The notes beneath the pieces were generated by a model. That model did not search any database. It had not been told where the DNA came from and saw nothing but the letters and a program-made list of their open reading frames with translations. A program made the position numbers and the translations under genes. DNA of 56,994 bases from Candidatus Zipacnadia bacterium (lineage in GTDB: Bacteria > Armatimonadota > Zipacnadia > Zipacnadales > UBA5352), in the NCBI GenBank assembly GCA_029820295.1, contig JALGVA010000010.1, forward strand, positions 1 through 56,994. The letters run 5' to 3'. Positions 6,329 to 47,221 of this stretch are shown piece after piece (position 1 is the stretch's first letter; the number at the start of each line of letters is the position of its first letter).

Positions 6329-9300
6329 GTGTTGCAGAAGGGGCGCATCCTTCTGACACTCGTCGTCACGTTGTGCGCCGCGATAATCGTATCGGATTGC
6401 GTCATCTCCCTCGGCGCCCCTGTCAGGCCGGCCGGCACAGCGGCCGATTTGACCGCGGCCGGGTACTCCTCGAGCGGGCGCCCGCTGCCCTGCGGCCGAC
6501 GTTACATTGGGATGGCGCGCCCCGATTGGTTGTTCGAGGAGATGGCCATGCGGGCCCAGCAGGGCTCGGGGCCGATCCCGGACATCAACCTCACTCCCAC
6601 AGCCACCGATTCCGAGGAGCTGTACGCGAACTCGGCCCCCTACGGTGAGCTGAACCGCATCATCATCTCCAGCAACGGTGTGGACGATGACGGTGATGGG
6701 CAGTTCGACTCCGGGGCTACCGCCGACGACTACAACCTGTGGATGCTGCGTGTTGACGGCTCGTTCGCCATGCAGCTCACAGACATGGCCGGGGATGAGC
6801 TTTACCCGGCCTACGATCCCGGTGGTCGTCTGGTGGCGTTCTCGTCGAACGCTTCGGGCGTGTGGCAGATCTACACGGTTGAGGTGCTGACCGGCACGGT
6901 GCGGCAGATCACCTTCAGCCCGGGCAACAAGTACGAGCCCACGTGGTCACCCGACGCGGCGCAGATCGTGTTCAGCGGCGACGCCAACGGGAATCGTGAC
7001 CTGTTCATCATCCCCTCGGACGGTTCGGGTCTGCCCCAGGCCATCACCACCAACCCGGCGGACGAGACGCAGCCGGTGTGGTCGCCGACGGCCGCAGGCG
7101 GCGCCTCGCCGATCCTGTTCACCCGCTCGGGCGCCGGCGGCAGCCGCATCTTCCGTATCGGCCCGGACGGCAGCAACGAACAGCAGGTGACCACCGGCGG
7201 CGGCGACCCGGCGGCCAATGACACCGACCCTGCGTGGCGCCACAACGGCCAGCTTATCGCCTTCGCCTCCGACCGCCTGACCGAGGCCGCGGACGTTAAC
7301 CGCGACTACAACATCTGGACGGTCTCGCCCGCGGGCGAGGACTCCTTCGATGCGACGCTGCGCAGCAACCTCGACGTTGCCGACGATGCCGACGACCGCT
7401 ACCCCGCGTTCAACCCGGGGCTGAACCCTCGGCAGCCGGTGCGCATCTTCTTCACCTCGGAGCGCAGCGGCAGCCCGGACATCTGGCGGCTGGAGGCAGG
7501 CGACCCGGTGCCGCCGGAGCTGGTGGACCTGCCGACGGTGGATGCTCCGCGGCGGTGGGTAGCGCCGGGCACCGACGCGACCTTCCACGTTGAGGTCTTC
7601 GACCGCGACAGCGGAGTTGACCGCGTGGTGATGGAGTTCAAGGATCCCGATTCGGCTGAGGACGACAGCCAGGGCCGGGACCACAAGCTGTTCGTGCAGG
7701 GCGTGGTCAACCTGCAGTCGGGCCTCAACGACGCCATGGTCTATCGCGAGGTGGACTGTGAGACGGTGGGCCAGACCGAGCTGTTCGACGACGGTGACCC
7801 GGCGCACGGTGACGCCGTCGCCGATGACGGCGTGTTCAGCGGCGTGTGGTCCACGCCCGCCTCTCCGAGCGACTTCATCATCGACGTGCATGTGCAGGAC
7901 GTCGCGGGCAACTCCTTCGAGTACGATGACGTTTTCGGCTTCACCACGCTGGCCTTTGAGCCCAAGACGAACGTGCTGTTTGTCGATGACTACTGTGAGG
8001 GCCAGGGCTTCATCTTCTCGGCGAGCGGCGCCAATAACGACTTCCCGACGATGTTCCCGGTGGAGAGCTACTACACCACCAACCCGGGCGCGGGCGGGGC
8101 GCGGAACACCATCCGCAACGCGCCAAGGGGCACCGGTGAGCCCTACGACGTGTGGCGGATCATCTGCCGCGGGCCGATCACCATCACCGACCTGATCTAC
8201 TACCTGCCCACGCGCGAGGTGCAGCTCACGGTGCCCGATCTGACGGGCACACGCGAGGTGCTGGTGGCGGACCGGGCGGTGATCTGGGCGGCGCCGCACT
8301 GCGGCGACACCTGGGTAGCGGAGGGCAGCCTGGTGAGCGCGACCACCCAGGCGACGCTGTCCACCTTCCTGGACCGCGGCGGGCGCCTGATGATCTCCGG
8401 GCAGAACATCGGTTTCGCGCTGACGTTAGATGGCACCAGTCCGAACAGCTTCTACACGAACTACCTGCACGCCGCCTATGTCTCCGATGACAACAACGGC
8501 GGCACGGGCGGGGCGGTCACGGACGACTTCATCAACGGCACCGACGGCGACCCGGTGGTGGCGCACCCGTTCGGCTTCTGGCCGCCCAAGGACGAAGAGG
8601 TGCCCGACGATGACTGCGCCATCGGCTGGTGGGTGACCAACAACGTTATGTACGCGCAGGACTGCGCGCACTACACGGTGTGGCCGGACGTGATCGAGGC
8701 CGTAGGCGGCGCGGTGGTCACTCACACCTACGACAACGGCAACACGGCCGGGGTGCGCTTCGAGATGCCGGGCGGGGGCTACCGGGTGGCCTACTACGCG
8801 TGGGGCTTCGAGCAGACGCACAAGGTGTGGGGCGGCAGCCCGGTGCACTGTCTGAACTATCGGGCGAAGTTCATGCACAACACGCTGTGCTGGCTGCGCA
8901 CTGGTGGCTTCCAGGGGCGGGTGCTGTCGATCAGCGACGGCAACCAGCCGATCAACGACCCGACGCCGATCGTGCGCGTGTTCCGCGGCGGAACCATGGT
9001 GGCGGCGGTGGAGTGCGAGGAGGACGGGCGCTACGTGATGGGCGGGCTGCCCCCGGGTGTGTACTCGATGAGCGCCTATCGGCCGGGCTTCGAGATTGAC
9101 CACTCGGAGGCGATGGCCACGCACGGGGGGCTGAACTACCCGGTGGTGGACTTCGCCATTACGCGCGCGGAGCCGGGCGCCATACGCGGCCGAGTGATCT
9201 CGGCGGCCACGGGCGAGGGCATAGCGGCGGCGGAGGTGTGCGCCTACGAGGCGGTGCCGATCGTCGATGAGGAGGAAGAGGAGGAGGGGGCGGCGCCGGC

Positions 9301-11332
9301 GCAGGCGGGCGGCGTTGAGGGCTACGAGCGCGGCCTGCTCTACGGCTGCACCACGACCGCGGCGGATGGCAGCTACATCATCGGCGACGTGCCGGTGGGT
9401 GAGGTCATAGTCGTGGCCGACGGGACCGCGCTGGGCTACGGCACGGCGGAGGAGCTGGCGACCGTCACCAGCGGGAACACGGTTACGATCGATCTGGTGC
9501 TGGATGCCGCGCCGGGGACCATTGCGGCGCTGGTGACCGACATCAACGACGCACCCATCGAGAACGCGACGGTGGAGGTGCTGCAGGACGGGGCGGTGGT
9601 CGCGGAGGGCACGACCGACGCCAACGGCGAGGTGGAGATCTCGGTGCCGCCGGGCGACTACTCGGTCGAGGCGACCGCGCCGGGCTACGAGCGCTCGGAC
9701 CCCGAGCCGGTCAGCCTGATGGCGGGCGAGACGCAGGACGTGGTGCTGGTGCTCCAGGGCGAGCCGCCGGGGAGCATCTCCGGGCTGGTCGCGCGCGCGC
9801 TCAGCGGGGAGGCGGTGGGCGGCGTCACGGTGGAGCTGGTGGTGAACCAGACGGTCATCGCCTCGACGACCACCAGCGACACGCCGACGACGCCCAATAA
9901 CGGCACGGCCTACAACTACCGCTTCGACAACGTGCCGACGGGCCAGATCACGGTGCGGCCCGACCCGGTCGGCTTCACGGTGTCGCCGACGCAACGCATC
10001 GTGACGGTGGCGTCAGGCCAGGAGACGACTGGGGTCAACTTCGGGGTGAGCGCGATCCGGACGTTCCCGGCGGGACTGCAGCTCATCTCGCTGCCCTACG
10101 ACTATCCCAACACCGATCCGGCGGCGCTGCTGGGGGCGGACGCAGGCAGCTTCAAGATGGCCGCGTGGGAGCCCAATGACAACCGTTACCATCTGTATCC
10201 GGCGACGCCTGCGGACCGCTTCCGGCTCGGGACCGGCTACTGGCTGAAGCTCGAGCAGATCCGTGAGCTGTCGGCCGAGGGCATCGAGGCGGACGATACG
10301 CACGCGGTGGCGCTGCAGGCCGGGACGAGCGGGTGGAACATCATCGGCGACTTCTTCCTGGAGCCGCTGGACTTCTTCTCGCTGTCGGTGCGCGACCGCA
10401 ACGGCGTGGTGCGCAGCATGCAGCAGGCGATGGCGGCGGGGCTGGTGCGCAGCCCGCTGTTCGCCTACGTGCTGGGATCGTACACCACGTCGGCGGTTGC
10501 CGAGCCCTATGTGGGCTACTGGCTGAACATCGGCGATGACGTGACGCTCATCGGTGAGCGCGCGACCGACACGCTGGCGGTCGGCGATGGTGGGTCGCGG
10601 CCGGCGGTGACGGCGCCCGAGGGTGGCTGGCTGCTGCCGTTGACGGTAAGCAGCGGCGGGGCGTCGGACGCCGCGACATGGATCGGCTGTGCGCCCGCGG
10701 CCACGGACGGCTTCGATGCGGGCATGGACTTGCTCAAGCCGCCGCCGCCGGGGATGGACACGTGCGTGTATGCCGCGGCGGGCGAGGATGAGGCGTTCGC
10801 GGTCGATGTGCGCGCGCAGGCGGCCGGGACGACGTGGACGATCAGTGTGCTGGGGCCGGCCGGCGAGACGGTGCGCGTGGCGTGGCCGGACATGTCGGCG
10901 CTGCCGACGGACACCAGGCCGGTGCTGATTGACGCCGCGACGGGCGCCGAGGTCTACATGCGCACGGCGCAGAGCTACGAGTTCACCGCGCGCGAGGGGG
11001 CGCGGGAGCTGCAGGTGCGGCTGCTGGAGGGAGAGGCGGGGCTGGCGGTGTCGGCTCCGGCGGCGGTGGCGGCCGGCGGCGGTGCGGAGATCAGCTACAC
11101 GCTGTCGGCGGACGCGCAGGTGGAGGTCGCCGTGCTCAACATCGCGGGGCGGCTGGTGGACACGGTGGTGAGCGATGCGATGCAGTCGGCCGGGGCGCAG
11201 CGCGTGGTGTGGGACGGGATGACCGCGCGCGGGACGCGGGCGCCGTCGGGCACCTATCTGGTGGTCGTGACGGCGCGGGCCGACAACGGCCTGCAGACGC
11301 AGGCCGTGGGGACACTGAGGCTGGGCCGATAG
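6329..11332 (+). CDS. Giant secreted beta-propeller / carboxypeptidase-regulatory repeat protein with FlgD-like C-terminus
   Basis: An exported protein of about 1667 aa with an N-terminal signal peptide (QKGRILLTLVVTLCAA). Domains in order: a TolB/PD40-type beta-propeller (about 130-400) with repeats such as LTDMAGDELYPAYDPGG; an Ig-like and alpha/beta stretch (about 400-860) with DRGGRLMISGQNIGF; four carboxypeptidase-regulatory-like beta-sandwich repeats (about 865-1245), one with a Glu run inserted; and a 420-residue C-terminal module shared with two neighbours, ending in a FlgD-type Ig domain (VAVLNIAGRLVDTV...PSGTYLVVVTA). No catalytic motif was recognised. It is probably a cell-surface adhesion, scaffold or binding protein. 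The start is GTG 6329 or TTG 6332, behind GGGGGAG at 6316-6322; the frame is open to 6296. It is the first gene of the surface locus. Confidence 0.82.
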   Translation: MLQKGRILLTLVVTLCAAIIVSDCVISLGAPVRPAGTAADLTAAGYSSSGRPLPCGRRYIGMARPDWLFEEMAMRAQQGSGPIPDINLTPTATDSEELYANSAPYGELNRIIISSNGVDDDGDGQFDSGATADDYNLWMLRVDGSFAMQLTDMAGDELYPAYDPGGRLVAFSSNASGVWQIYTVEVLTGTVRQITFSPGNKYEPTWSPDAAQIVFSGDANGNRDLFIIPSDGSGLPQAITTNPADETQPVWSPTAAGGASPILFTRSGAGGSRIFRIGPDGSNEQQVTTGGGDPAANDTDPAWRHNGQLIAFASDRLTEAADVNRDYNIWTVSPAGEDSFDATLRSNLDVADDADDRYPAFNPGLNPRQPVRIFFTSERSGSPDIWRLEAGDPVPPELVDLPTVDAPRRWVAPGTDATFHVEVFDRDSGVDRVVMEFKDPDSAEDDSQGRDHKLFVQGVVNLQSGLNDAMVYREVDCETVGQTELFDDGDPAHGDAVADDGVFSGVWSTPASPSDFIIDVHVQDVAGNSFEYDDVFGFTTLAFEPKTNVLFVDDYCEGQGFIFSASGANNDFPTMFPVESYYTTNPGAGGARNTIRNAPRGTGEPYDVWRIICRGPITITDLIYYLPTREVQLTVPDLTGTREVLVADRAVIWAAPHCGDTWVAEGSLVSATTQATLSTFLDRGGRLMISGQNIGFALTLDGTSPNSFYTNYLHAAYVSDDNNGGTGGAVTDDFINGTDGDPVVAHPFGFWPPKDEEVPDDDCAIGWWVTNNVMYAQDCAHYTVWPDVIEAVGGAVVTHTYDNGNTAGVRFEMPGGGYRVAYYAWGFEQTHKVWGGSPVHCLNYRAKFMHNTLCWLRTGGFQGRVLSISDGNQPINDPTPIVRVFRGGTMVAAVECEEDGRYVMGGLPPGVYSMSAYRPGFEIDHSEAMATHGGLNYPVVDFAITRAEPGAIRGRVISAATGEGIAAAEVCAYEAVPIVDEEEEEEGAAPAQAGGVEGYERGLLYGCTTTAADGSYIIGDVPVGEVIVVADGTALGYGTAEELATVTSGNTVTIDLVLDAAPGTIAALVTDINDAPIENATVEVLQDGAVVAEGTTDANGEVEISVPPGDYSVEATAPGYERSDPEPVSLMAGETQDVVLVLQGEPPGSISGLVARALSGEAVGGVTVELVVNQTVIASTTTSDTPTTPNNGTAYNYRFDNVPTGQITVRPDPVGFTVSPTQRIVTVASGQETTGVNFGVSAIRTFPAGLQLISLPYDYPNTDPAALLGADAGSFKMAAWEPNDNRYHLYPATPADRFRLGTGYWLKLEQIRELSAEGIEADDTHAVALQAGTSGWNIIGDFFLEPLDFFSLSVRDRNGVVRSMQQAMAAGLVRSPLFAYVLGSYTTSAVAEPYVGYWLNIGDDVTLIGERATDTLAVGDGGSRPAVTAPEGGWLLPLTVSSGGASDAATWIGCAPAATDGFDAGMDLLKPPPPGMDTCVYAAAGEDEAFAVDVRAQAAGTTWTISVLGPAGETVRVAWPDMSALPTDTRPVLIDAATGAEVYMRTAQSYEFTAREGARELQVRLLEGEAGLAVSAPAAVAAGGGAEISYTLSADAQVEVAVLNIAGRLVDTVVSDAMQSAGAQRVVWDGMTARGTRAPSGTYLVVVTARADNGLQTQAVGTLRLGR

Positions 11333-11447
11333 GCAACTGCCCGCCGCCGCAACGCGGTGGGGGGTGCACAGAAGCAGGACGGGCTAGCGTGCGCAATACC
11401 GGGCGCATGGTTGTGCGCAGCCGCGTGCCGGGAGGAGCAACGGGATA

Positions 11448-13373
11448 ATGCATCGGCTACACGAGGGACGGATCTGGAAATTCGTAGCACTCTTCGTCGC
11501 CGCAACCATGGTCGTACCGTACGCTGTGGTCAGCTTCCCGGCGGTCGCGGAGGCGCAGGCGCAGCCTGTGGTGGAGAGCGCCTCAGTGATCGTGCTGCCG
11601 ATCCTCGACCTCGACGCCGCCACCGATTCGGTCATCAGTGAGAAGATGACCGATGCGCTGGCCCTGTCGCTGGAGGACTCGCGGGAGTTCATCGTGAGTT
11701 CCAAGCGTGACCTCGAGCGCGAGCTGGCGGCGCTGGAGCTGGAGCCGCCGCTGTCGGTGGTGGAGCAACTGCGTCTGGCCGAGCGCCTGCAGGTTGACAA
11801 GGTCGCCAGCGGCCAGATCATGTCGCTGGAGGTCAACGAGAGCAACGGGCAGGTGACGATCACCCTGTCGGTGGCGCTGCTGGACGTGGCGACCGGGGAG
11901 TACCTCAACGGCACGGTGACCACGGCGGTCACGAAGCCGATCCCTGGCTGGGGGGGCGAGGAGACGCAGGTGATCAACAGCGCCGTCCGGGAAGTCGCGC
12001 ACGATGCGGTGGAGAACCTGCTGATCAACCGCATCCCCGAGGGGTTCATCACGTCGGTGAACACCCTCGGCGTGGCGACGGTGAACCTGGGGCAGGATGA
12101 CCGGCTGCAGAGCGGCATGGAGATGGTGCTGTTCCGGCCGGTATGGCAGCGCGACCTGCGCGAGCTGATCATGGTGAAGGTGGGGCGCTACTCGGTGGCC
12201 GATGTGAGCGCGCGCAGCGCGGAGTTGACACCGCTGGGTGAGGGTCGCGCGCGGGTAGGCGACCGGGCCTACAAGCTCTACAGTGGTCCGGAGCGCGTGC
12301 GGGTGCAGCAGCGGGCGCGCAACAACCAGAAGACGCTGACGACGGTGATGGCGCTGGGGCTGCTGCTCGGGGTGGTCGCCGTGGCGTCCGGCCCCTCGAC
12401 CACGGACGGCCCGGTGGGGGTGAACTCGCACCTGTTCCAGCAGGCGCCCGGTGACGAGGCAGTGATCCGGGTGAATGTGCCGGCACGGAACATCCCGCTG
12501 CGCGACCAGATATTCGCGTGGCTGTTCTTCCGCAGCGATGGTCAGCAGAACTTCAGCCTGCTGGCGGACAAGCTGGTGGGGATCGTGCGCGAGGCGAGGC
12601 TGCCCAATGGCGTGTGGGACGACAATGCCGCCTTCGCGGGCCCGTTTGAGGACGACTTCGACTTCACCTACATCACGCCGGAGGGTGATGAAGAGGACGG
12701 CAACGTGGACTACCTGTTCTATCACTGGCAGTTGCAGCCCGGTCACACCTACTACCACCGGGTGCAGCGGGTGATCGAGCCGCCGACACGCGCGGGCAGC
12801 GGCTCGCCGATCACGACCACGGGCATGCGGGCCCAGCAGATCACCATCGAGCCGCAGGTGCTGACGGTCGATCCCGAGGATGCCCTGAGCGACGGCAGCA
12901 CGCCGACGGCGGGTGTGACCTACTTCACGCCGCCGGTGCTGCAGGCGCCCGAAGACGGGGCGAGCAACCAGTCCACCAGCCAGATTACCTTCACGTGGAA
13001 CTCGACGGTGGGCGCGAACGAGTACATCCTGCAGGTGTTCCCGGAGGACGACCCGGACGGACGCCGCAACCCTGACTTCCAGGTGCAGATGCGCCAGGAC
13101 ACCACGGGCGTGATGTTCCAGACGATCAACCAGAGCTTCCTGCCCAGCAGCCGCTTCTACTGGCGGGTGGGAGCGCGGCGGTCGGGCGAGGCGCAGCCTG
13201 AGAACGGACGCCTGGGCCAGACCGGCTGGCTGTTCAGCGAGATCCGGACCTTCACGACGGCGGCGGCGCCGCCCCCTCCGCCGGGGACGTCGGCGGCGGG
13301 CTTCCGGTCGGGTCCGGACGGGCTCTATACCGCGACATTCGGCACTCCGCGCTACGGCCGACCGGGCCGGTAG
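11448..13373 (+). CDS. Exported FlgT/CsgG-like protein with membrane helix and fibronectin III domain
   Basis: 641 aa with a signal peptide (about 1-38, ending AEAQA). Residues 42-185 have the CsgG/TolB-N-like fold signature (VIVLPILDLD, then KVASGQIMSLEV and VALLDVATGEY). Residues 195-275 look like the C-terminal SH3-like domain of FlgT. A hydrophobic helix follows (about 295-318, TLTTVMALGLLLGVVAVASG), then an Asp-rich region and an FN3-like domain (about 495-605). The C-terminus is proline- and glycine-rich. The likely place is the periplasm or outer membrane. The gene at 21102-22172 has the same order of parts, so the two form a paralogous pair bracketing the locus. The function is unknown; assembly or anchoring of surface structures is an inference. 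Confidence 0.75.
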   Translation: MHRLHEGRIWKFVALFVAATMVVPYAVVSFPAVAEAQAQPVVESASVIVLPILDLDAATDSVISEKMTDALALSLEDSREFIVSSKRDLERELAALELEPPLSVVEQLRLAERLQVDKVASGQIMSLEVNESNGQVTITLSVALLDVATGEYLNGTVTTAVTKPIPGWGGEETQVINSAVREVAHDAVENLLINRIPEGFITSVNTLGVATVNLGQDDRLQSGMEMVLFRPVWQRDLRELIMVKVGRYSVADVSARSAELTPLGEGRARVGDRAYKLYSGPERVRVQQRARNNQKTLTTVMALGLLLGVVAVASGPSTTDGPVGVNSHLFQQAPGDEAVIRVNVPARNIPLRDQIFAWLFFRSDGQQNFSLLADKLVGIVREARLPNGVWDDNAAFAGPFEDDFDFTYITPEGDEEDGNVDYLFYHWQLQPGHTYYHRVQRVIEPPTRAGSGSPITTTGMRAQQITIEPQVLTVDPEDALSDGSTPTAGVTYFTPPVLQAPEDGASNQSTSQITFTWNSTVGANEYILQVFPEDDPDGRRNPDFQVQMRQDTTGVMFQTINQSFLPSSRFYWRVGARRSGEAQPENGRLGQTGWLFSEIRTFTTAAAPPPPPGTSAAGFRSGPDGLYTATFGTPRYGRPGR

Positions 13374-13428
13374 CGCGGGTGGGCGCGACGGCAGCACTGC
13401 ACGCTGACAATCCGGGGGCCGGAGGGGC

Positions 13429-14646
13429 ATGATCCGCACGCCTGGGATGGTCGTGATGTTGACGGGCATCCTGAGCTGGTGCCCGACAGGTGCGGCGCCG
13501 GAGGGCGGCGGCGGGTGGACGCTGGCCGCCTATGTGTGCGCGGATGGGGATCTGAGCGCGCTCGGGCGGAGGTACGCCGCCGAGCTTGTGGCGGGGGCGC
13601 GAGCCGGCGGGTGGACGCTGGCGGGACAGATCGACGAGGGCGTCAGGGGCCGCTCGCGGGTCGCTAGCCACCGGTTCGTCGTGGGGGGCGCGGGGGAAGG
13701 CAGGGCGCCGGTCAGGGGGGACGAGCCGGTCAACGTGGGCACTGCTGAGAGCCTGGCGGACTTCCTGAGGTGGGTGGGCGAACGGGCTCCGGGAACGCGG
13801 CTCGGCCTGATCGTGTTCGGCCATGGCGCGAGCCCCGCGGGGCTGACGGCGGACGGGACGTTGCTGTCGGCCGAGGCCGCGGTAGCGCTCGATGCGGAGC
13901 GGGGGGATGCGCTGACCGCGCGCGAGGTCGCTGAGGCGCTGGACGCGGTTGACAGGACGGTTGACCTGCTGGTGCTGGACAGTTGCTTCAGCGGCAGCAT
14001 GGACGCGGCCTGGGAGCTGCGGGAGCGGGTGGACGTGCTGGTGGTGTCGCGCGGGCGCGTGCCGGGGTCGGGGCTGCCGTGGCGAGCAGTGCTGAGCGGC
14101 GCCGGGCCGGAGGGGGCCACGCCCGAGGCGCTGGCGCAGCGGTGCCTTGACGAGGCGGCGGGGTCGCGCGCGCGGGCGGAGGGCCTGACTGCGGTGCGCT
14201 GCGCGGGGCTGGTGAATGTGGTGGCGGCGGTGCGAGGGCTGGCGGAGGCGATCGCCGGCGAGCCTGATGCGGGGATGCTCGCGCTGGCGATGGCGCGACG
14301 GACGTGTCGCGATCTGGGCGTGGACCGTGAGTTGTGTGACCTGCGCGAGCTGTGCGCGGGTCTGCAGGAGAGTGACAGCGCGGCGGTGAGCGAGGCCGCG
14401 ATTGATGTGTGCGACGCGATCGATGGCAGCGTGGTGGGAGGGGTCGGTGGCGGGGCGGCGCGCGGGGGGCTGACGGTGCTGATGCCCGGGGGCCTGATGG
14501 GAGTCCCCGACGGGTACGGCGCGCGGGCGGATAGCTTCGGCGGGTCGAGCGGCTGGGGGGAGACGATCCGTGCGTACCGCCGAGGCCTGCAGGACCTGAT
14601 GCAGCGGACGACGGACAACTCGCGGCGGGGAGGGGACGCAGCGTGA
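13429..14646 (+). CDS. Clostripain-type (C11, clan CD) cysteine peptidase, secreted
   Basis: 405 aa with a hydrophobic N-terminal signal (MVVMLTGILSWCPTGAAP). The C11 catalytic pair is visible: H132 in GLIVFGHGAS and C186 in LLVLDSCFSGSMDAAWEL. Clan CD also contains gingipain, PorU, legumain and caspases, and cleaves after Arg/Lys or Asp/Asn depending on the family. ATG 13429 has GGAGGGG just upstream. The gene lies 55 bp after the FlgT-like gene and 94 bp before the subtilase. That position invites the idea that it processes the neighbouring surface proteins. No C-terminal FlgD module is present on this protein, so it is probably free in the periplasm or membrane-tethered. The enzyme class is fairly sure; the substrate is unknown. 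Confidence 0.82.
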   Translation: MIRTPGMVVMLTGILSWCPTGAAPEGGGGWTLAAYVCADGDLSALGRRYAAELVAGARAGGWTLAGQIDEGVRGRSRVASHRFVVGGAGEGRAPVRGDEPVNVGTAESLADFLRWVGERAPGTRLGLIVFGHGASPAGLTADGTLLSAEAAVALDAERGDALTAREVAEALDAVDRTVDLLVLDSCFSGSMDAAWELRERVDVLVVSRGRVPGSGLPWRAVLSGAGPEGATPEALAQRCLDEAAGSRARAEGLTAVRCAGLVNVVAAVRGLAEAIAGEPDAGMLALAMARRTCRDLGVDRELCDLRELCAGLQESDSAAVSEAAIDVCDAIDGSVVGGVGGGAARGGLTVLMPGGLMGVPDGYGARADSFGGSSGWGETIRAYRRGLQDLMQRTTDNSRRGGDAA

Positions 14647-14740
14647 GGGGTCCCGTGTCAGTCGGGGAACCGCAGACACAGACGCAGCAAGCGCTCCAGA
14701 GCTGGCCTGCACGCGAGTGCGGTCAGGAGGAGGAGTCAAA

Positions 14741-17700
14741 GTGAGTCGGCTTCGCAATCGAGAGATCCCCGCGTGCGGTGCCATTACCGCGCTGCTTGCG
14801 CTCTCCCTGATGCTCACCACTCCATGCTGGAGCGCCGAGGGGCTGGCGGACCTTGCCGGCCCGTTGCGCGCGCTGGCCATGCAGGCCGGGGGAGCGGGGG
14901 CCGCGCGGCAGTTGGGCCCGCTGGCGGCGCCGGGTGCGGGCGGGGACGTGCACGTGGTCGTGCAGTTCCGCAGCGAGATGGCCGCGGCGGCGCAGTCGCT
15001 GGCGGCCTTCGGCGCGCGCGTGCGGTTCCGGCGCGGCGACCGGGTCGAGGCGTTCGTGCCCGCGGACCAGCTGCTGGCCATCGCGAGTCTGCCGGACGTA
15101 GCGCAGGTGCGGCCGCCCAACTACGCCATCCCCATGCAGGGCTTCGGCGCCACCAGCAGCGAGGGAGTGCAGCTCGTCGGGGCGGTGCCGTTCCACGCAG
15201 CGGGGATCATGGGGGAGAACGTGACGGTTGCGATCATTGATGTGGGCTTCAACGACATTGACAACGCCGAGGTGACGATCGCCGCCAACGCGCAGGTGAG
15301 TTTCCGCGCGGACGGCACGATGGGCACCGACTACCACGGGACGGCGGTCGCGGAGATCGTCGCGGATATGGCGCCACTGGCGACGATCATCGCCATCGCG
15401 GTGGACACCGAGATGTCGGTCGAGAGCGCGATCGACTTCGTGATCAACCGCGGCTTCGATGTGTGCTGCATGTCGATGGGTCTGCTGGGGGGGCCCTACG
15501 ACGGCACGCACGGGGTGTCGCAGGCAGTCAACCGGGCGCGCAGTCGGGGCGTGTTCTGGGTGAACGCGGCGGGCAACGCGGCCCAGCAGCACTGGATGGG
15601 GGCGTGGAGCGACCGCGATCACGATGGCCTCGGGGAGTTCGGGGCGGGGGATGAGGACCTGGACCTGATGCTGCCCGCGGGGCAGTACATGGCCTACCTG
15701 AGCTGGTACGAGACCGCGGGCAGCCGGACAAACCGCGACTTCGACCTGGTGCTGTATGACGCGGCGGACAACGAGGTGGCGCGGTCGGGGTTCAGCCAGA
15801 ACGGCGACGACCCGCCCGCGGACACTCTGATCGCGTACATCGACACGGCCGGGCAGTACACGCTGCGCATCGAGTACGTGGCGGGGCCGGCAGACCCGAC
15901 CGACAACTTCCAGCTGTTCTCGGTGGACGTGGACCTGGAGTCCTCCGCGCAGGTGCCGGCATCGAGCATGCCGATCCCGGCGGAGGCGTCGGGGGCGTTC
16001 ACGGTCGGTGCGGTGCGCGGGGCGCTGATTACCGATCCGGCGGTGCCCATGGTACCGGTTGACGGCCTGGAGCCGTTCAGCTCGCGGGGGCCGGTCGTGG
16101 GGCACCCGACGCAGATCAAGCCGGACCTGGTGGCTCCCGATGGGGTGGCGACGAGCTACGCGGCCGAGGGCTTCTCGCCGTTCCTGGGGACTTCGGCGTC
16201 GGCGCCGCATGTCGCGGGGGCGGCGGCGCTGCTGTTGGACGAGGACAGCAATCGCACGGCGGACGAGGTGGGGGCGATTCTGCGCACGCAGGCACTGCGG
16301 CTGGGTGACCCGGTGCCGAACAACGAGTTCGGCTGGGGCCGGCTGCGCATGCGCGTGGGGGCGGACAGCCGCCCGCCGAGCATCACCATCTCCTATCCGC
16401 AGAACGGCACGACCATTACCACGCGGACGCCGACTCTCATCGCCTTCATCCAGGACGATGGCAGCGGCGTGGATCCGAGCACGATCACGGTGGAGTTCAA
16501 CGGCGTGATCATGTTCGATGGCTCGACGGTCGCGGACATCACCGAGTATTACGACGAGCGCACGGGGCAGTTCACGTGGAACGTGGGCGAGACGCTGGCA
16601 CGCACCAACCACACGGCGATCATCAACGTGTCGGACAACGTGGGGAACGCAGCGACGCCAGCGGTGACGAACTTCCGCGTGGCGGCGCCGACGATTCCGG
16701 GCGGCGTGTCGATCGTGTCCTTCCCGTACACGGACCTGCAGGTCACCGATCCGAGCGTGATTCTGGGGACGCCGCTGGCGGATCTGGCGCTGGTGCGCTG
16801 GTGGCCGCTGGACGAAGCCTTCGACAAGTACCACTTCTATCCGGACGCGCGCGCCAGCCTGGTGCCCCCGGATTGCCAGCAGGCCGACCCGAACGACCGC
16901 ACGGTGCCGTTCCCGCCGGCCGGGCTGGCCTACTTCCTGAGCATCCCGCGCGACGCGGTGCTGGACATCCAGGGGCAGCCGCTGCGCGATGTCGCCAGCA
17001 CGCACATCCGGCTGTTCCGCGGGCAGCAGCCGCCGCGGGGCTGGAATCTGGTGGGCAACCCGTTTGACGAGGCGGTGAGCTGGGGCAGCGTGCAGTTCGT
17101 CACCGACGGCGTGCGCCAGGACCTGCGCGAGGCGATCGCGTCGGGGGTGACGGAGGGCGTGTTGTTCGAGTTCGTCCAGGGTGTGGGCGGGCAGGCGGGC
17201 TTCTACGACTTCAACCCGGACCCGAACGCGGCGATTCTGCAGCCGCGCAAGGGCTACTGGTTGCATGTGAATGAGGACACACGCGTCGTGGTCTACAGCT
17301 CGAACATCGGCACGATGGCGGCGTCAGACCGGGCCGAAGAGGTGACGGCGGATGAGGGCTGGACGGTGACGCTGTCGGCGCGGGCGGGCATCTGCCAGGA
17401 CCCGCGTAACATTCTGGGCGTGAAGCCGGCGGCGAGCGCGGGCTACGATCCGGGCTGGGATGTGCCGGAGCCGCCGGCGATCGTGGAGGGCCTGCAGATG
17501 TCGATGCCGCGGCCCGGCTGGGGCGAGAACGCGGGCGCGTATGCGCGCGACATTCGCGGGCCTGCGGACGCGCAGGTGTGGGACATCGAGGTGTCCTGTG
17601 CGCTGCCGGACACCGATGTCGAGGTGAGCTGGCCCGACCTGAACGCCGAGGTGCCCGGCGATGTGCGCCTGGTGCTGGAGGATCTGGACAGCGGGGCGAC

Positions 17701-18088
17701 GGTCTACATGCGCACGAGCGCGGCGTATCGCTTCCGCACCGGCGCCGACGGCGGGACGCGGCACCTGCGGGTCTCGACGGTGGGCGGCGGTGAGGCGCTG
17801 GCGCTGCGCAGCATGGCGGCCGAGCCCGCGGGCCAGGGCGCGATGATTACGTACGCGGTGAGCATGCCCGCGGACGTGACGGTGGATATCATGAACATCG
17901 CGGGGCGGCTGATCCGCAGCTACCCCGCACGGTCGGTGGCGGGGGACGCGCAGCAGACGCTGACCTGGAACGGGATGAGCGATCGGGGCAGCGCGGTGCC
18001 GTCGGGCCGCTACTTGGTGCGCCTGACGGCGCTGGCGGCGGACGGGCAGACGGTGCAGGCGATCCGACCACTCAGCATCGCGCGCTGA
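14741..18088 (+). CDS. Subtilisin-like (S8) serine protease with shared C-terminal surface module
   Basis: 1115 aa, secreted (signal peptide through about residue 33). A short inhibitor-like propeptide (about 70-135) precedes the S8 domain. The catalytic triad is D167 in VAIIDVGF, H199 in DYHGTAVAEI and S485 in GTSASAPHVAGAAALL. An unusually large insertion (about 290-420), resembling a pre-peptidase C-terminal beta domain (DFDLVLYDAADNEVARSG), sits between His and Ser. An Ig-like domain follows. The last 460 residues (from about 653) are the module shared with the proteins at 6329 and 18147, ending in a FlgD-like Ig domain. GTG 14741 follows AGGAGGAGG at 14725-14735. It is probably an extracellular scavenging or maturation protease displayed on the cell surface. 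Confidence 0.92.
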   Translation: MSRLRNREIPACGAITALLALSLMLTTPCWSAEGLADLAGPLRALAMQAGGAGAARQLGPLAAPGAGGDVHVVVQFRSEMAAAAQSLAAFGARVRFRRGDRVEAFVPADQLLAIASLPDVAQVRPPNYAIPMQGFGATSSEGVQLVGAVPFHAAGIMGENVTVAIIDVGFNDIDNAEVTIAANAQVSFRADGTMGTDYHGTAVAEIVADMAPLATIIAIAVDTEMSVESAIDFVINRGFDVCCMSMGLLGGPYDGTHGVSQAVNRARSRGVFWVNAAGNAAQQHWMGAWSDRDHDGLGEFGAGDEDLDLMLPAGQYMAYLSWYETAGSRTNRDFDLVLYDAADNEVARSGFSQNGDDPPADTLIAYIDTAGQYTLRIEYVAGPADPTDNFQLFSVDVDLESSAQVPASSMPIPAEASGAFTVGAVRGALITDPAVPMVPVDGLEPFSSRGPVVGHPTQIKPDLVAPDGVATSYAAEGFSPFLGTSASAPHVAGAAALLLDEDSNRTADEVGAILRTQALRLGDPVPNNEFGWGRLRMRVGADSRPPSITISYPQNGTTITTRTPTLIAFIQDDGSGVDPSTITVEFNGVIMFDGSTVADITEYYDERTGQFTWNVGETLARTNHTAIINVSDNVGNAATPAVTNFRVAAPTIPGGVSIVSFPYTDLQVTDPSVILGTPLADLALVRWWPLDEAFDKYHFYPDARASLVPPDCQQADPNDRTVPFPPAGLAYFLSIPRDAVLDIQGQPLRDVASTHIRLFRGQQPPRGWNLVGNPFDEAVSWGSVQFVTDGVRQDLREAIASGVTEGVLFEFVQGVGGQAGFYDFNPDPNAAILQPRKGYWLHVNEDTRVVVYSSNIGTMAASDRAEEVTADEGWTVTLSARAGICQDPRNILGVKPAASAGYDPGWDVPEPPAIVEGLQMSMPRPGWGENAGAYARDIRGPADAQVWDIEVSCALPDTDVEVSWPDLNAEVPGDVRLVLEDLDSGATVYMRTSAAYRFRTGADGGTRHLRVSTVGGGEALALRSMAAEPAGQGAMITYAVSMPADVTVDIMNIAGRLIRSYPARSVAGDAQQTLTWNGMSDRGSAVPSGRYLVRLTALAADGQTVQAIRPLSIAR

Positions 18089-18146
18089 CGTGCTCAATGT
18101 GAGAGGAGCTGACCCTCTGGTGGAGCGGCAACGCAAGAGGCAGACA

Positions 18147-21038
18147 ATGATAGGCCTGCGGCCGATCGCGCCGCTGGTGTGCGCGGCATGCATCTTGCTC
18201 ACGACGTGGGGGGAAGCGCAGGCGCAAGCTGGCCGGACCACCGTGGATCACCCCGCCGGGCTGACCCGGCTGGTCGTGCATTCACCGGCACTCATCGCCG
18301 TTACCGGCAGTAGCGGTGGCGGCAATGGCGGTGGCGATGGCGGCGATGGCGGTGAGGAGCCCGGCGACTTCGTGGAGCCCGACATGCCCCCGGCCCAGGT
18401 CCGGCCCAGTCAGACGGTTGAGTACGTCTACCGTCCCGCCGGCCGTTTCCAGTTCTGGACAGGCTCGGAAGTTGCCGGCGGGGGCAACCCGCTGGTGGCG
18501 GGGGACGAAGCGCGTCTGATTGCCAGCCTGTCCGCCGCGGCGACCGACTGGGATCTGACCAGCTTCACGTCGAAGTTGACGGTATCGGTTGACGGCACGA
18601 CCTACGATCCCTATGAACAGATGTTCAATCAGGATCCGGAGGCGTCGCCGGGCGACCTGCCCATCTTCTGGACGCAGGACCTGACGGCGGGCACGCGCGA
18701 CGTGGTGGGGGAGCAGTTGCTGCCCCTGATGAGCGACGTGCCGACCGCGGGCATGCCGAATGTGCGCATCCGCATGAGCTACACGCTGGTGCACGACGGC
18801 CTCATGATAGACTACATCATCTACAACGACGACAGCGTGGCGCACAACATCGGGCTGCGGGTGATGATCGACGCGCTGTTCGGGGCGGCGATTCGCGACG
18901 GCGCGGCCATCGTGCTTGACGACGGGACCGTGATCACGAACGAGACCAAGATCCCCGATCCGAGCAACCCGGGCATCGCGATGCCGAAGACATGGGTGGC
19001 ACGTGACAACGCGAACAACCCGCTGGTGAGCCTGCGCGGGACGCTCGACGGGTCCGAGGTGCGCGATGCGGGCGTGGCGTCGGAGAGCGCGGGGGTGCCC
19101 GACGAGATTGCCTTCGGCCAGTTCCGCAACATCGGCGGTACGCTGCAGTGGGACTTCCAGCCGAACCCGCGGGCGTCGTTGCTGGGCGAGGACTGGGCCT
19201 ACGCGGTGAAGTGGTTCGAGCGCACGCTGCAGCCGGGGCAGAGCCGGCGCTTCGTGACCTACTACGGGCTCGGGGCGGCGGCGGTGGACTACGATCCGCC
19301 TTACGCGCTGGCGGCGTACGCGCCATCGGCGCTGCAGGTGGCTGAGGGTGACGACCCGGAGACGCCGGAGATCGAGAGCTACTACCTGACCGACCCGGAC
19401 GGCAACTCGGTGTTCGAGATCGTGGCGATGCTGGATAACTTCGGCACGTCGCCGCTGACGAATGCGACCGTGCGCATCAGCCTGCCGGAGGGACTGGAGC
19501 TGTACCCGGACACGCAGCCGCGCACGGTGTCGATGGGCCTGGTGAACCGGAATCAGTCGCCGCTGCCGATGGCGCGGTGGACGGTGCGGGCGGTGGCGAC
19601 GCGGCCGGGCACGGCGGAGGTGTCGGTGACCGGGCCGCTGGGCAAGGTGGTTCGGCAGCAGATCAGCATTCCCGCGGTGCCTATCATTCCCGCGCGGACC
19701 TCGCTGCTGGGGCTGGAGATGCTGTCGATTCCGTTCGAGTTCACGAACTCGGATGCTTCGAATGTGTTCGGCTCGTTGGCCGACTCGGTCTTCCCGGGCG
19801 GTCCGGTGGCGATGTGGCGCTGGAACCCGGGGAGCGGGCAGTACCTGACCTACCCGGACCCGTTCGTCGCCAACATCGAGCCGGGCGTGGGCCTGTGGCT
19901 GCTGAACCAGAACCGGGAGACGATCGTGCTGCCGGCGGGGGCGACGCAGGTCAGCCAGAACGTGAGCTTCACGCTGCCGCTGTCGCCGGGCTGGAATCAG
20001 ATCGGCGGCCCGTACGCGGTGCCGATGCGCTTCGACCAGGTCGAGGTGCTCGATGCGCAGGGGTCCCAGTGGTCGATTCAGGAGGCGGCGCAGCGCGGGC
20101 TGATCCTGCCGGTGCTGTACTCCTACGACGCGGAGAACAACGAGTACGAGTGGTCCACGTCGCTGCAGGCGGCGCGGATCATCCCCTTCGAGGGCTACTG
20201 GCTGCTGGCGTTCCGGGATGTAGCGCTGGTGTTCCCGCCGCCGAGCCTGTCCACGCTGGGAGCGGAGATGCAGGTCGCGACGGCCGAGGCGGCGGACGAG
20301 GGCTGGCAGGTGGGCCTGAGTGTGGAGAGCGCGGGGCGGAGGTGTGGCGAGCGCTATCTGGGGGTGGCGCAGAGCGCGTCGGCCGGGGTTGACCTGCACG
20401 ACGTGCCCGCGCCGCCGTCGGCGCTGAGGCCCGGACCGGTGGTGGACGCGTACTTCACGATCGGCGACGCCGGCGGTCCGCGCTATCTGGTGGACACGCA
20501 GCCGGCGACGGCGGCGACGAAGACCTGGACCCTGACGGTGGTGGCGGAGGAGCCGGGCGCCGCGGTGACGCTGCGCTGGCCCGAGCTGTCCTCGACGCTG
20601 CCCGACGGTCTGGTGGCGACGCTGGAGGACCTGGACGGCGGGCGCCAGACCTACATGCGCACGAGCGGGAGCTACACCTACAACTCAGGGACGGGCGGTG
20701 CGCGGCACTTCCGGGTGGTCGTGCGGGAGCGAGCGGGGGCGGCGCTGGGGCTGACGGCGACGGCCCAGGCGGCGAGCGGCCGAGGTCTGGAGATCCTCTA
20801 CACGCTCAGCCAGTCGGCAACGGTGGACGTCGAAGTGCGCAACATTGCGGGGCGGGTCGTCAGTCGCGTGGCATCGGGGCGTGAGGCCGAGCAGGGGCAG
20901 AATACGTTGGTGTGGAATGGGATCAGCGACGCCGGGACTGCGGTGCCGGCGGGGACGTATATCGTACAGGTAACGGCGAGGTCGGCCGAGACGGGCGAGC
21001 AGGCGAGCGTGATCAGGACGGCGACCATCGGCCGGTAA
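18147..21038 (+). CDS. Secreted protein of unknown N-terminal function with shared FlgD-like C-terminal module
   Basis: 963 aa with a clear signal peptide (MIGLRPIAPLVCAACILLTT...AQAQA). A Gly/Asp-rich linker (GGGNGGGDGGDGGEEPG, about 53-72) leads into a large beta-rich region (about 85-415) that I do not recognise. A CARDB/DUF11-like Ig domain follows (about 420-510, LDNFGTSPLTNATVRISLP). From about residue 519 to the end comes the module shared with its two neighbours, including the YMRTSGSYTYN motif and the terminal FlgD-like domain (VRNIAGRVVSR...PAGTYIVQVTA). ATG 18147 has AAGAGG 6 nt upstream. It starts 58 bp after the subtilase. Probably a structural or binding surface protein. Confidence 0.8.
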   Translation: MIGLRPIAPLVCAACILLTTWGEAQAQAGRTTVDHPAGLTRLVVHSPALIAVTGSSGGGNGGGDGGDGGEEPGDFVEPDMPPAQVRPSQTVEYVYRPAGRFQFWTGSEVAGGGNPLVAGDEARLIASLSAAATDWDLTSFTSKLTVSVDGTTYDPYEQMFNQDPEASPGDLPIFWTQDLTAGTRDVVGEQLLPLMSDVPTAGMPNVRIRMSYTLVHDGLMIDYIIYNDDSVAHNIGLRVMIDALFGAAIRDGAAIVLDDGTVITNETKIPDPSNPGIAMPKTWVARDNANNPLVSLRGTLDGSEVRDAGVASESAGVPDEIAFGQFRNIGGTLQWDFQPNPRASLLGEDWAYAVKWFERTLQPGQSRRFVTYYGLGAAAVDYDPPYALAAYAPSALQVAEGDDPETPEIESYYLTDPDGNSVFEIVAMLDNFGTSPLTNATVRISLPEGLELYPDTQPRTVSMGLVNRNQSPLPMARWTVRAVATRPGTAEVSVTGPLGKVVRQQISIPAVPIIPARTSLLGLEMLSIPFEFTNSDASNVFGSLADSVFPGGPVAMWRWNPGSGQYLTYPDPFVANIEPGVGLWLLNQNRETIVLPAGATQVSQNVSFTLPLSPGWNQIGGPYAVPMRFDQVEVLDAQGSQWSIQEAAQRGLILPVLYSYDAENNEYEWSTSLQAARIIPFEGYWLLAFRDVALVFPPPSLSTLGAEMQVATAEAADEGWQVGLSVESAGRRCGERYLGVAQSASAGVDLHDVPAPPSALRPGPVVDAYFTIGDAGGPRYLVDTQPATAATKTWTLTVVAEEPGAAVTLRWPELSSTLPDGLVATLEDLDGGRQTYMRTSGSYTYNSGTGGARHFRVVVRERAGAALGLTATAQAASGRGLEILYTLSQSATVDVEVRNIAGRVVSRVASGREAEQGQNTLVWNGISDAGTAVPAGTYIVQVTARSAETGEQASVIRTATIGR

Positions 21039-21101: not shown

Positions 21102-22172
21102 ATGACGGCGATACGATCCAGCAAGCTGGTCGGCCCGACGAGCATTGCGCTTGCCGCGCTGATGCTGGTGCTGACCGTGCCGATGAGCGTACTGCCGACG
21201 GCTGAGGCACAGGACACGGACAGGCTGCTGCTGCTGTTCCCGGTTCTGGACCGCAGCGACTCGGGCTATGAGGACGTTGCGGCCCGCGCTACGGACTATC
21301 TGCAGATCGCAATGAGCGAGGTGGCCGGGCTGCGGGTCGCCGAGTTCTCGCCCACCTCGCCGATGGTACTGCGGGCGGTCGAGGAGGGCCAGATCCGCTC
21401 GGTGGACCTGGAGACGGCCGTCACCGATCCGGTGACGGCCATCCAGATCGGCTGGGCGCTGGGGGCCGACGAGGTGTGCCTGGCGACGGTGTCGTCGATC
21501 GAGACGTCGGCGGAGCCGATGCAGGTCGAGGCGCTGCTCAACGGCACGTGCTACATTGTGAGCGACAACGTGGACGCCACCACGATGCAGGTGGCCGAAC
21601 GGCCGACGCCCGGGAACACCTTCGGCGTGGCGGGCACGAGCATGATGCGGGAGGGCTACGAGGGCACGATGCCGCCGCTGGTGCGGGAGGCGCTGCGGGA
21701 TGCGGCGCGCAAGGCGTCGCAGGTGCTGGCGGGCATGCCTGCGGAGGAGATGGCCGCGGAGCGGCCGGCGCGCGGGGACAAGGGGTGGCGCTGGGCGCTG
21801 GCGCTGCTGATCGTGGCCGGGCTGGTGCTGGCGGCGGACAGCGGCGATGACGGGGACGCCGGGCCGGTGGCGGCGGCGGTGCCGCCGCAGCCGCTGCGCC
21901 TGGAGATCGAGCCCGCCGCGATTCGGATGTTCTGGAATGCGCCGAACTCAACGCTGACGGTATTGCGCTACGATATCCAGCGCTCGACGGACAACGGCGT
22001 GACGTGGAACCCGGCGCCGGGGTCGCAGGGCAACGTGGAAGCGGATGACACGAGCTTCGCGGACTTCGATGTGGACGAGGGCCAGAGCTACCTGTATCGC
22101 ATCCGCGCGCAGTACACAACCGCAGGGCCGTCGCCGTTCGCGCAGTTCCAGTCGGTGGTGTTCCCCGGCTAG
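21102..22172 (+). CDS. Exported protein: CsgG-like N-domain, membrane helix, fibronectin III
   Basis: 356 aa with a signal peptide (about 1-36, ending PTAEAQ). The N-terminal domain (about 39-220) begins LLLLFPVLDRSDSG and has the alternating pattern of TolB-N/CsgG-like proteins, including GWALGADEVCLATVSSIE. A hydrophobic helix follows (about 229-245, WRWALALLIVAGLVLA), then an Asp/Gly-rich spacer and one FN3 domain (about 262-354, RYDIQRSTDNGVTW). This is a shorter paralogue of the gene at 11448. It lacks the FlgT-C-like part. The start is ATG 21102, with AGGAG 11 nt upstream. A strong hairpin follows the stop. It is likely an envelope component of the same surface system; the exact role is unknown. 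Confidence 0.72.
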   Translation: MTAIRSSKLVGPTSIALAALMLVLTVPMSVLPTAEAQDTDRLLLLFPVLDRSDSGYEDVAARATDYLQIAMSEVAGLRVAEFSPTSPMVLRAVEEGQIRSVDLETAVTDPVTAIQIGWALGADEVCLATVSSIETSAEPMQVEALLNGTCYIVSDNVDATTMQVAERPTPGNTFGVAGTSMMREGYEGTMPPLVREALRDAARKASQVLAGMPAEEMAAERPARGDKGWRWALALLIVAGLVLAADSGDDGDAGPVAAAVPPQPLRLEIEPAAIRMFWNAPNSTLTVLRYDIQRSTDNGVTWNPAPGSQGNVEADDTSFADFDVDEGQSYLYRIRAQYTTAGPSPFAQFQSVVFPG

Positions 22173-22271: not shown

Positions 22272-24242
22272 GTGACAGGACGAGCAGCAGTCATCGCCTT
22301 GGGGATCATGGTCGCGTCATGCGGCTGGAGCGTGGCGCAGGGGCCGCGGCTGGACGGTGTGCGGCTGAACCTGTGGCCGACGCCGCGGGTGGCGCCGGCC
22401 GACGGCCTGACGGCCAGCACGGTGCGCGCGGAACTGCGTGACACGCGCGGGGCCCCGGTCGCGGACGGCACGAGGGTGGTGTTCCGGATCGAGGGCGGGC
22501 AACTGAGCCTGGGTGGGGACGAACGTCGCCAGGTGGTGACGACGACGACCGTGGGAGGCAGTGCGACCGTGTTCGCAACCTCGACCACACCGGGCGTGGC
22601 GACGATCTTCGCCGAGTTGACCACCGGGCAGGGGAAGAACCAGACGACGGTGGCGTTCGTAGAAGAGGGCAGCTCGCTGCTGGGGGAGGGCGGGGTGGCG
22701 CACGTGCGTGGCGGCTGGGTGGGCTACGCCCTCGACCTGGCCCTGGTCGAGGCGCGCGACGGGGCCGAGGTCGAGTTCGGGTCCGTGCTGGTGTGCGCCG
22801 ACGATGTGCTGCAGATCGACGTGACCACGATGGAGCTGCGCGCGACCGCCGCGCGCGTACAGGTCGGCGACGAGTGCCTGGCGGCCGACGAGCTGAGCTA
22901 CAACCTGCTGGCCGGCCAGGGGGTGTTGCGCCGGATTACCGATGAAGGTGTGGTGCGCCGGTGCTTCGACTGCTTCACCCTGGAGGAGCGCGAGCCCGAG
23001 ACGGAGATCACGGGCGAGATGCTGCGGCTGTTCCCGGCGGATGCGGCGGCGTGGGCGGTCGCGGATGGGGTGTCGATCTACCCGCAGGAGAAGGTGGTGC
23101 TGCGGGGGGCGACGCTGTATGCGGGGGAGCGCAAGGTGCTGGACCTGCCGCGCTACTGGATCATCGCCATGCCGGGCTACAGCGGCACGACGCACTCGGG
23201 GGTGCTGGGGGTGAGCCTGGACGGGGGGCTGGCGGTGGACTTCCCGTACTTCTACCGCGTGACCGAGACGCAGACGGGGGCGATCAAGTTGCAGCGGGGG
23301 GCCAGCGCGGGGAGGGTGATCGCGCGCGAGGACTGGTCGCTGGCGCTCGAGGAGGCCTATGACACCGGGCGGAGCGAGGGCAGCGTGAGCCTGGTGGGAC
23401 TGCCGCGCAGCGACTGGGGCTTCGAGTGGCGCGACCAGCGACGGCTGGGCCCCCGGCGCGACGGCTACTTCACGGCCTACTCGCCCGACCATGAGAGCTG
23501 GTACTTCGACGCGAACGTCTATCAGTGGTCAGGCAACGATCGGCTGAATATGACGGCGTCGGCGCAGTTCCCGCTGGACGAAGGGGCGTCCTACGCCGTG
23601 GGAGCCGACTGGCTGACCAGCAACCGGCCGGCGGGCGTGTGGAACGCGAGCTATCGCGTCGGCACGGCGGTGGGCGTGCGGCACGCGTCGGGGCTTGACG
23701 AAGGGCTGGTGGGCCAGCACCAGGTCTACGGGGGGCTGGACTTCCCGCGGCAGCACCTGGGCGCGCGCACGAGCGTGCGGCCGTCGCTGAGCAACCTGTT
23801 CACATGGGACACCAGCGGCTTCCAGCAGAACTCGCTGCGCGGGGAGCTGAGCCTGCGCGAGGTGTTCAGCAGCGACGTGTCGGGGTGGCTGTCGTACCAG
23901 GGGCAGCTCACCAGCGGCGACAACGCGGACGGCTACGAGCACCTGGTGAACCTCGACCTGCGCGCATACCACGGCGCGCAGTGGAGCAGCTACTTCACCG
24001 GCACCTACGACCTGACCGACGAGGAGCTGTACACGTTCGGGCTGGTTGACTGGTACGTTGACGCGGACTGGCGGGTGGCGTTCGCGGCCACCTACTACCA
24101 GGTCGAGGACAGCGACTACGACGACTTCGAGGTCACGGTGGCGCGCCGGATCGGGCCCACGGAGGTCGGGCTGCGCTGGTCCGAGGAGAGTAACCGCATC
24201 GCCATTGAGGTGGGGAGCCTGGCCGGCCTGGGTGTGTACTGA
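22272..24242 (+). CDS. LptD/OstA-like outer-membrane beta-barrel with N-terminal Big_1 (invasin-type) Ig domain
   Basis: 656 aa. The signal peptide (about 1-23) contains VASC, which also fits a lipobox. Residues 37-125 are a Big_1/invasin-like Ig domain (ADGLTASTVRAELRDTRG). Residues 150-270 resemble the OstA/LptA-like domain that precedes the LptD barrel (VQVGDECLAADELSYN, then YPQEKVVLRGATLY). From about 280 the sequence alternates aromatic and polar residues as in a transmembrane barrel, and it ends in a terminal Tyr like a BAM-recognised beta-signal. LptD inserts lipopolysaccharide in the outer membrane. The Ig fusion, the short barrel and the location beside surface-protein genes leave open a role in protein export or display. 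GTG start. Confidence 0.72.
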   Translation: MTGRAAVIALGIMVASCGWSVAQGPRLDGVRLNLWPTPRVAPADGLTASTVRAELRDTRGAPVADGTRVVFRIEGGQLSLGGDERRQVVTTTTVGGSATVFATSTTPGVATIFAELTTGQGKNQTTVAFVEEGSSLLGEGGVAHVRGGWVGYALDLALVEARDGAEVEFGSVLVCADDVLQIDVTTMELRATAARVQVGDECLAADELSYNLLAGQGVLRRITDEGVVRRCFDCFTLEEREPETEITGEMLRLFPADAAAWAVADGVSIYPQEKVVLRGATLYAGERKVLDLPRYWIIAMPGYSGTTHSGVLGVSLDGGLAVDFPYFYRVTETQTGAIKLQRGASAGRVIAREDWSLALEEAYDTGRSEGSVSLVGLPRSDWGFEWRDQRRLGPRRDGYFTAYSPDHESWYFDANVYQWSGNDRLNMTASAQFPLDEGASYAVGADWLTSNRPAGVWNASYRVGTAVGVRHASGLDEGLVGQHQVYGGLDFPRQHLGARTSVRPSLSNLFTWDTSGFQQNSLRGELSLREVFSSDVSGWLSYQGQLTSGDNADGYEHLVNLDLRAYHGAQWSSYFTGTYDLTDEELYTFGLVDWYVDADWRVAFAATYYQVEDSDYDDFEVTVARRIGPTEVGLRWSEESNRIAIEVGSLAGLGVY

Positions 24243-47175: not shown

Positions 47176-47221
47176 AGTGGGGCCGGGCGCACAGCGGGAA
47201 CACACAGGAGGAGAGACGCCC

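Follow-up and report, generated by a model that had tools for sequence, protein, structure and literature searches.

A conserved C-terminal tail of secreted proteins in the phylum Armatimonadota, a candidate outer-membrane sorting signal

Introduction

How do proteins with unrelated N-terminal parts come to end in one and the same tail, and what could such a tail do for a bacterial cell? The question is raised by three genes, here called A, B and C, in a window of 56,994 nucleotides, by which we mean the whole stretch of DNA that was analysed. The genome holding it (Armatimonadota, class Zipacnadia) has a size of 5.63 Mb in 331 contigs and is 98.6% complete. Armatimonadota are distant from Bacteroidota, a phylum that uses a tag resembling this tail for delivery to the cell surface. 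The type IX secretion system (T9SS) or its C-terminal domains (CTDs) have been described as restricted to Bacteroidota (PMC10202324, PMC4793230), and in the open-licence literature searched we found no description of the module reported here. Elsewhere in the window, positions 47093-49093 encode a protein of the Prismane/CO dehydrogenase family, and a terminase large subunit at the contig end (55407-56891; phrog_2, E 9e-17) suggests a prophage.

Three proteins with a common tail

The reading frames of A, B and C (6329-11332, 14741-18088 and 18147-21038, all on the + strand) are open, and each protein begins with a signal-peptide-like N-terminus. Protein A (1667 aa) continues with a PD40 (TolB-like) propeller and CarboxypepD_reg repeats, protein B (1115 aa) with an S8 subtilase domain (Peptidase_S8), and protein C (963 aa) with an N-terminal region of no known family, for which Pfam gave no match. 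All three finish with a C-terminal module on the + strand, of 419 aa in A (10073-11329), 461 aa in B (16703-18085) and 441 aa in C (19713-21035), whose last residue is Arg in every case. Pairwise BLASTP aligns the C-terminal parts only (A-B, 33% identity over 477 columns, E 1.6e-55; A-C, 34%, E 1e-47; B-C, 31%, E 1.5e-46) and gives no further significant mutual match among the three proteins outside the module. The FlgD_ig family (PF13860) scores above its gathering score of 27 bits in all of them (A 47.7, B 31.6 and C 42.9).

The common tail of A, B and C is real, and a preliminary description made from the letters of the window was right in proposing a shared module of about 420-460 residues behind unrelated N-termini. 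The motifs it quoted are also found, in the order A, B and C: SLPY, SFPY and SIPF; VYMRT, VYMRT and TYMRT; NIAGR; PSGTYLV, PSGRYLV and PAGTYIV; and the final GR, AR and GR. The three genes are not all neighbours, as it had supposed: A and B are separated by a gene for a 641-aa protein (11448-13373, +; no family above threshold, CsgG/FlgO-like by eye) and by another for a peptidase of the C11 (clostripain) family (13429-14646, +).

These genes belong to a seven-gene block, running from A through the gene at 22272, which is conserved between families of the order and is flanked by CoaE upstream and uvrB downstream wherever the fetched stretch extends far enough. Its last two members encode a 356-aa protein with no family above threshold (21102-22172, +) and a 656-aa protein (22272-24242, +) with a Big_1 Ig domain followed, by eye, by an outer-membrane beta-barrel-like region; database searches matched the invasin-like Ig part only. 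That region looks LptD-like by eye, and the protein is kept at the cluster end across the order. The catalytic His132 and Cys186 of the C11 peptidase are invariant in 11 orthologues, and its gene is missing from the block at one locus and weakly matched at two. C11 peptidases share a peptidase clan (CD) with PorU, the sortase of T9SS, and a processing role for the peptidase of this cluster is a matter of speculation.

Architecture and fold of the module

The preliminary description treated the module as one unit; it is indeed shared by all three proteins, but it is a composite of several domains: two homologous repeats of about 95 residues, a beta domain of about 150 and a FlgD-like Ig domain of about 100. 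In protein C, all on the + strand, the repeats lie at 19704-20267, with the patterns WRW...Y..YP...GxGYWL and GWN.IG...Y.Y...Y...P..GYWL, and align with each other in hhalign (Prob 92, E 6e-7; control pairs about 1). The beta domain follows at 20301-20723, with W(P)xLS..P...L.D...YMRT motifs and no clear relative in the PDB, and the Ig domain, the proposed sorting signal, closes the module at 20739-21035 with its Arg end.

An AlphaFold2 model of the C module has a mean pLDDT of 91.6, and of 90.9 for the part that precedes the Ig end. The first 350 residues or so match no Pfam family and are included in no known sorting signal. The search for a known fold of this region, which bore mainly on the part behind the two repeats, gave no clear candidate (Foldseek, best E 5e-3 with probability 0.13; VIA, a top Z of 5.5, for 82 residues and 3.2 A). 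In its predicted structure, the Ig end can be superposed on the PorU C-terminal domain (6za2; Z 11.3, 95 residues, 2.3 A), with Vpr ranking above that domain and many GH2 enzymes about as high, so that the fold alone is weak evidence for a likeness to T9SS. By sequence, the best match of the Ig end is FlgD, in Pfam as in the PDB, and the FlgD-like Ig fold is a common one, found also in extracellular proteins.

The extreme C-terminus

The position and the last residue of the module were followed in 82 distinct full modules from homologues of the order. The match ends within five residues of the stop in all 82, and exactly at the stop in 70. Arg is the final residue of 73 and Pro of the other nine; Arg closes 18% of called genes, a background to which we attach no probability, since the module copies are homologous. 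The information content drops from 3.85 bits at position -1 to 0.70 bits at -2, and a second Arg occurs at -7 in 50 of the 82. Outside the order, 12 of 13 C-terminal matches from further families of Armatimonadota have the Arg end, and in the genome under study the final residue is exactly Arg in all the proteins that end in the Ig domain.

That the last residue is fixed while the one before it is nearly free suggests a C-terminus recognised by some other component. The last 13 residues of type A CTDs, notably conserved lysines, are required for secretion (PMC10202324), and the module shows the corresponding features of an extreme C-terminal domain (82/82) and a conserved basic last motif (Arg in 73/82).

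Passengers, spread and history

Besides A, B and C, the module occurs on other proteins of the same genome, with nine full copies and two proteins carrying the Ig end alone, which makes 11 at the C-terminus; a twelfth FlgD_ig domain is internal. Its passengers include subtilases, a propeller protein, a beta-helix protein, proteins of no known kind and, by eye, an M6-like and a C1-like peptidase. Each of the nine readable N-termini consists of basic residues and then a 14-residue stretch with a mean Kyte-Doolittle value of 2.1-3.0, so that by hydropathy all nine begin like the Sec signal peptide expected of proteins with type A CTDs. The module profile matched every genome of a first sample (31/31), relatives in the order having between 1 and 46 matches each, and 190 of 201 Armatimonadota genomes in a sample of the phylum. 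The tail is thus a real and phylum-wide feature, and neither of the findings that the preliminary description had named as fatal to its reading, confinement to three genes or presence on cytoplasmic proteins, was encountered. The dozens of marked secreted proteins that it looked for in a sorting domain are also not seen in this genome, with its nine full modules and 11 Ig ends.

The tail had further been regarded as a constant C-terminus on which passengers are swapped. Across the order, the modules of the A, B and C orthologues each form a clade of their own, and with 9 groups the module tree needs 13 label changes, where shuffling gives 50.9. The fusions between passengers and modules are therefore old, and recent or free swapping is ruled out by a module tree that follows gene orthology.

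Relation to type IX secretion

The model of type A CTDs (TIGR04183, cut-off 23 bits) gives 23.6 bits for the module of C, 13.9 for A and 12.8 for B; among 35 modules, 21 match it at E<0.1 and 31 match the PorU model, with most modules below the TIGR04183 cut-off. The translocon SprA/Sov (TIGR04189) has no match in this 98.6% complete genome, and the PorV shuttle no match near the cut-off (best NF033709 score 39.2 bits versus 90), although related barrels may exist. With SprA not found and PorV-family matches below the cut-off, the module is not a demonstrated T9SS feature.

Outside the phylum, three of 26 sampled genomes have SprA over the cut-off (G208, G209 and G223, with 524-805 bits). The module profile has 24, at least 66 and at least 66 matches in these three, nearly always at the Ig end, the two counts of 66 being lower bounds because every scored candidate matched; in the other 23 genomes it has 0-6 matches. 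One protein of G223 (L231:3557-8755; record CP070727, bin44) combines the N-terminal part of the module with a classic type A tail, which scores over the TIGR04183 cut-off and ends in KLIIMR. The link that these observations make between the Ig end and type A CTDs is one of association and not of proof.

A linked protein related to SprA

One module gene of this genome (C134) adjoins a gene for a 1125-aa protein with features, by eye, of an outer-membrane barrel. A barrel-like family of 850-1260 aa to which it corresponds is seen phylum-wide (L012:6259-9633, L166:6258-9863, L171:7570-11355 and L199-L218). Two N-terminal domains of this family align with SprA in hhalign (Prob 97.5 with E 6e-12, and Prob 97.3), whereas a shuffled SprA gave 0.1 and an unrelated protein of the cluster 2.3. 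Its best TIGR04189 score is 69 bits versus a cut-off of 200, at model positions 591-692, which places it outside the SprA family as the model defines it. Moreover, shorter non-SprA relatives in the SprA-positive genomes match the linked protein as well as SprA does, and for this reason we do not call the family SprA. Weak SprA matches in other Armatimonadota were also rejected, as they cover one motif that phage-tail/DUF2460 models match too.

The linked gene adjoins a module-family gene or lies within a few genes of it, often accompanied by a lipoprotein-like gene, in the order studied here and in several families beyond it, not in all. It also lies, by eye, near csaB-like and DUF5693-like genes in several families. 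The partner module protein (L012:9509-12619; homologues in L166, L169, L171, L199, L203, L217 and L218) has a conserved N-terminal domain of about 550 aa with an HAFHD...AWEEG pattern, by eye an unusual or inactive gluzincin metallopeptidase. None of the 11 genomes without the module has the linked protein (Fisher p 3e-12, a value that ignores kinship, the 11 representing only three lineages), the absence in one of them, G195, being inferred from its not being among the matches listed. Loss of the outer membrane was rejected as the cause of this joint absence, since all 11 retain Omp85. On the other side, about six families with the module lack a clear orthologue of the SprA-related protein, and some homologues of the linked module protein have the repeats without an Ig end (L217, L218, L202, L204 and L168). 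These two observations, together with the equally matching non-SprA relatives, make the SprA-related protein a candidate partner and not a demonstrated translocon.

A possible sorting signal and its alternatives

We propose, at about even confidence, that the tail is a C-terminal sorting signal for the outer membrane, functioning in the manner of a T9SS type A CTD and placed on a phylum-specific extension. Sec would carry the protein across the inner membrane; in the periplasm, the C-terminal edge of the tail would be recognised, and the passenger would then be moved to the cell surface or anchored on it. The last 100 residues or so, with the FlgD-like Ig domain and its near-invariant terminal Arg, would most likely be the sorting signal, and the 350 residues upstream, with the two repeats and the beta domain, would be a phylum-specific stalk or a second recognition unit. 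The reading draws on the strict C-terminal position, the terminal Arg, the signal-peptide-like N-termini, the diversity of passengers and the spread through the phylum, together with the likeness to type A CTDs in sequence and predicted fold and with the linkage to, and joint absence with, the SprA-related protein; from these we infer recognition of the tail, crossing of the outer membrane and any participation of the linked protein or the C11 peptidase. Counted against it are a SprA search without a match in this genome, the low PorV scores, the modules below the TIGR04183 cut-off, a common fold, only 11 proteins in the genome and the ancient fusions, as well as the Ig-less homologues of the partner and the module families without an orthologue of the SprA-related protein. 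The sorting signal of the preliminary description thus survives as a strictly C-terminal domain on signal-peptide proteins with varied N-termini, type A-like in its last 100 residues, and does not survive as a demonstrated part of T9SS.

The conserved beta architecture that precedes the Ig end for some 350 residues would also suit a surface anchor or stalk that is not itself a signal for export: once the passenger had left the cell by some other route, the beta domains would attach it to a wall polymer, an S-layer or an outer-membrane protein. The frequent neighbourhood, by eye, of the SprA-related gene and csaB-like genes, whose product would modify a wall polymer, agrees with this, and so do the Ig-less homologues with repeats, which retain the gene linkage. 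The strict stop at a conserved Arg behind a variable residue is left unexplained by an anchor, as are the two proteins of this genome that carry, at the C-terminus, the Ig end and no other part of the module, and we consider such a function somewhat unlikely.

A true T9SS, with translocon, shuttle and motor too diverged for the models used, would account for the type A resemblance, the linkage of a SprA-related outer-membrane-type protein to a module-family gene, the subthreshold PorV-family matches and the co-occurrence, in other phyla, of the Ig end and SprA. The same SprA model that finds nothing here scores three other genomes far above its cut-off, however, and the linked protein has half the length of SprA and is matched equally by shorter non-SprA relatives, all of which makes a divergent T9SS improbable. 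That the tail is merely a multidomain region of extracellular proteins that was duplicated long ago, C-terminal by descent and with no sorting or anchoring role, would fit modules that track gene orthology and an Ig fold common among such proteins, and is very improbable given several unrelated passengers, a module that is always terminal and a terminal Arg conserved in families across the phylum.

Going further than the sorting signal that we prefer, the terminal-Arg, type-A-like tail could be read by the half-length SprA-related protein in a distinct, phylum-wide outer-membrane route, a relative of T9SS that is either independent or ancestral; this larger proposal is a doubtful one at present. 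If a sorting role is true, Armatimonadota, a little-studied diderm phylum, would gain a candidate pathway for bringing proteins to the cell surface, with substrates predictable from sequence, and the origin of SprA-type translocons a point of comparison. The existence of cultured Armatimonadota makes the sorting hypothesis testable.

Comparison with known systems

SprA/Sov proteins have some 2100-2300 residues, about twice the 850-1260 of the linked protein, whose barrel part is not alignable with theirs. Like the module end, the T9SS type A sorting domain (TIGR04183, PF18962) is an Ig-like C-terminal domain of about 100 residues on signal-peptide proteins, and NIAGR, P(S/A)GxY and the basic last stretch resemble its motifs B, D and E, with weak model matches of which one, among A, B and C, is above the cut-off. 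The module differs from it in scoring mostly below that cut-off, in having an Arg, fixed as the last residue, in place of the Lys of the last motif, in the conserved extension of about 350 residues ahead of the Ig end, and in a genome in which SprA was not found. The T9SS type B CTD with its PorP/SprF shuttle also combines a substrate gene beside an outer-membrane-protein gene with the involvement of a larger C-terminal region (PMC12618676, PMC10202324). Unlike in type B, no TIGR04131 match appeared, and the linked outer-membrane-type protein is related to SprA and is not SprF-like. Finally, the Ig-like domain of FlgD (PF13860) has the same fold as the module end and gives its best sequence matches, but there it is part of the flagellar hook-cap protein, whereas here it is the terminal piece of secreted multidomain proteins.
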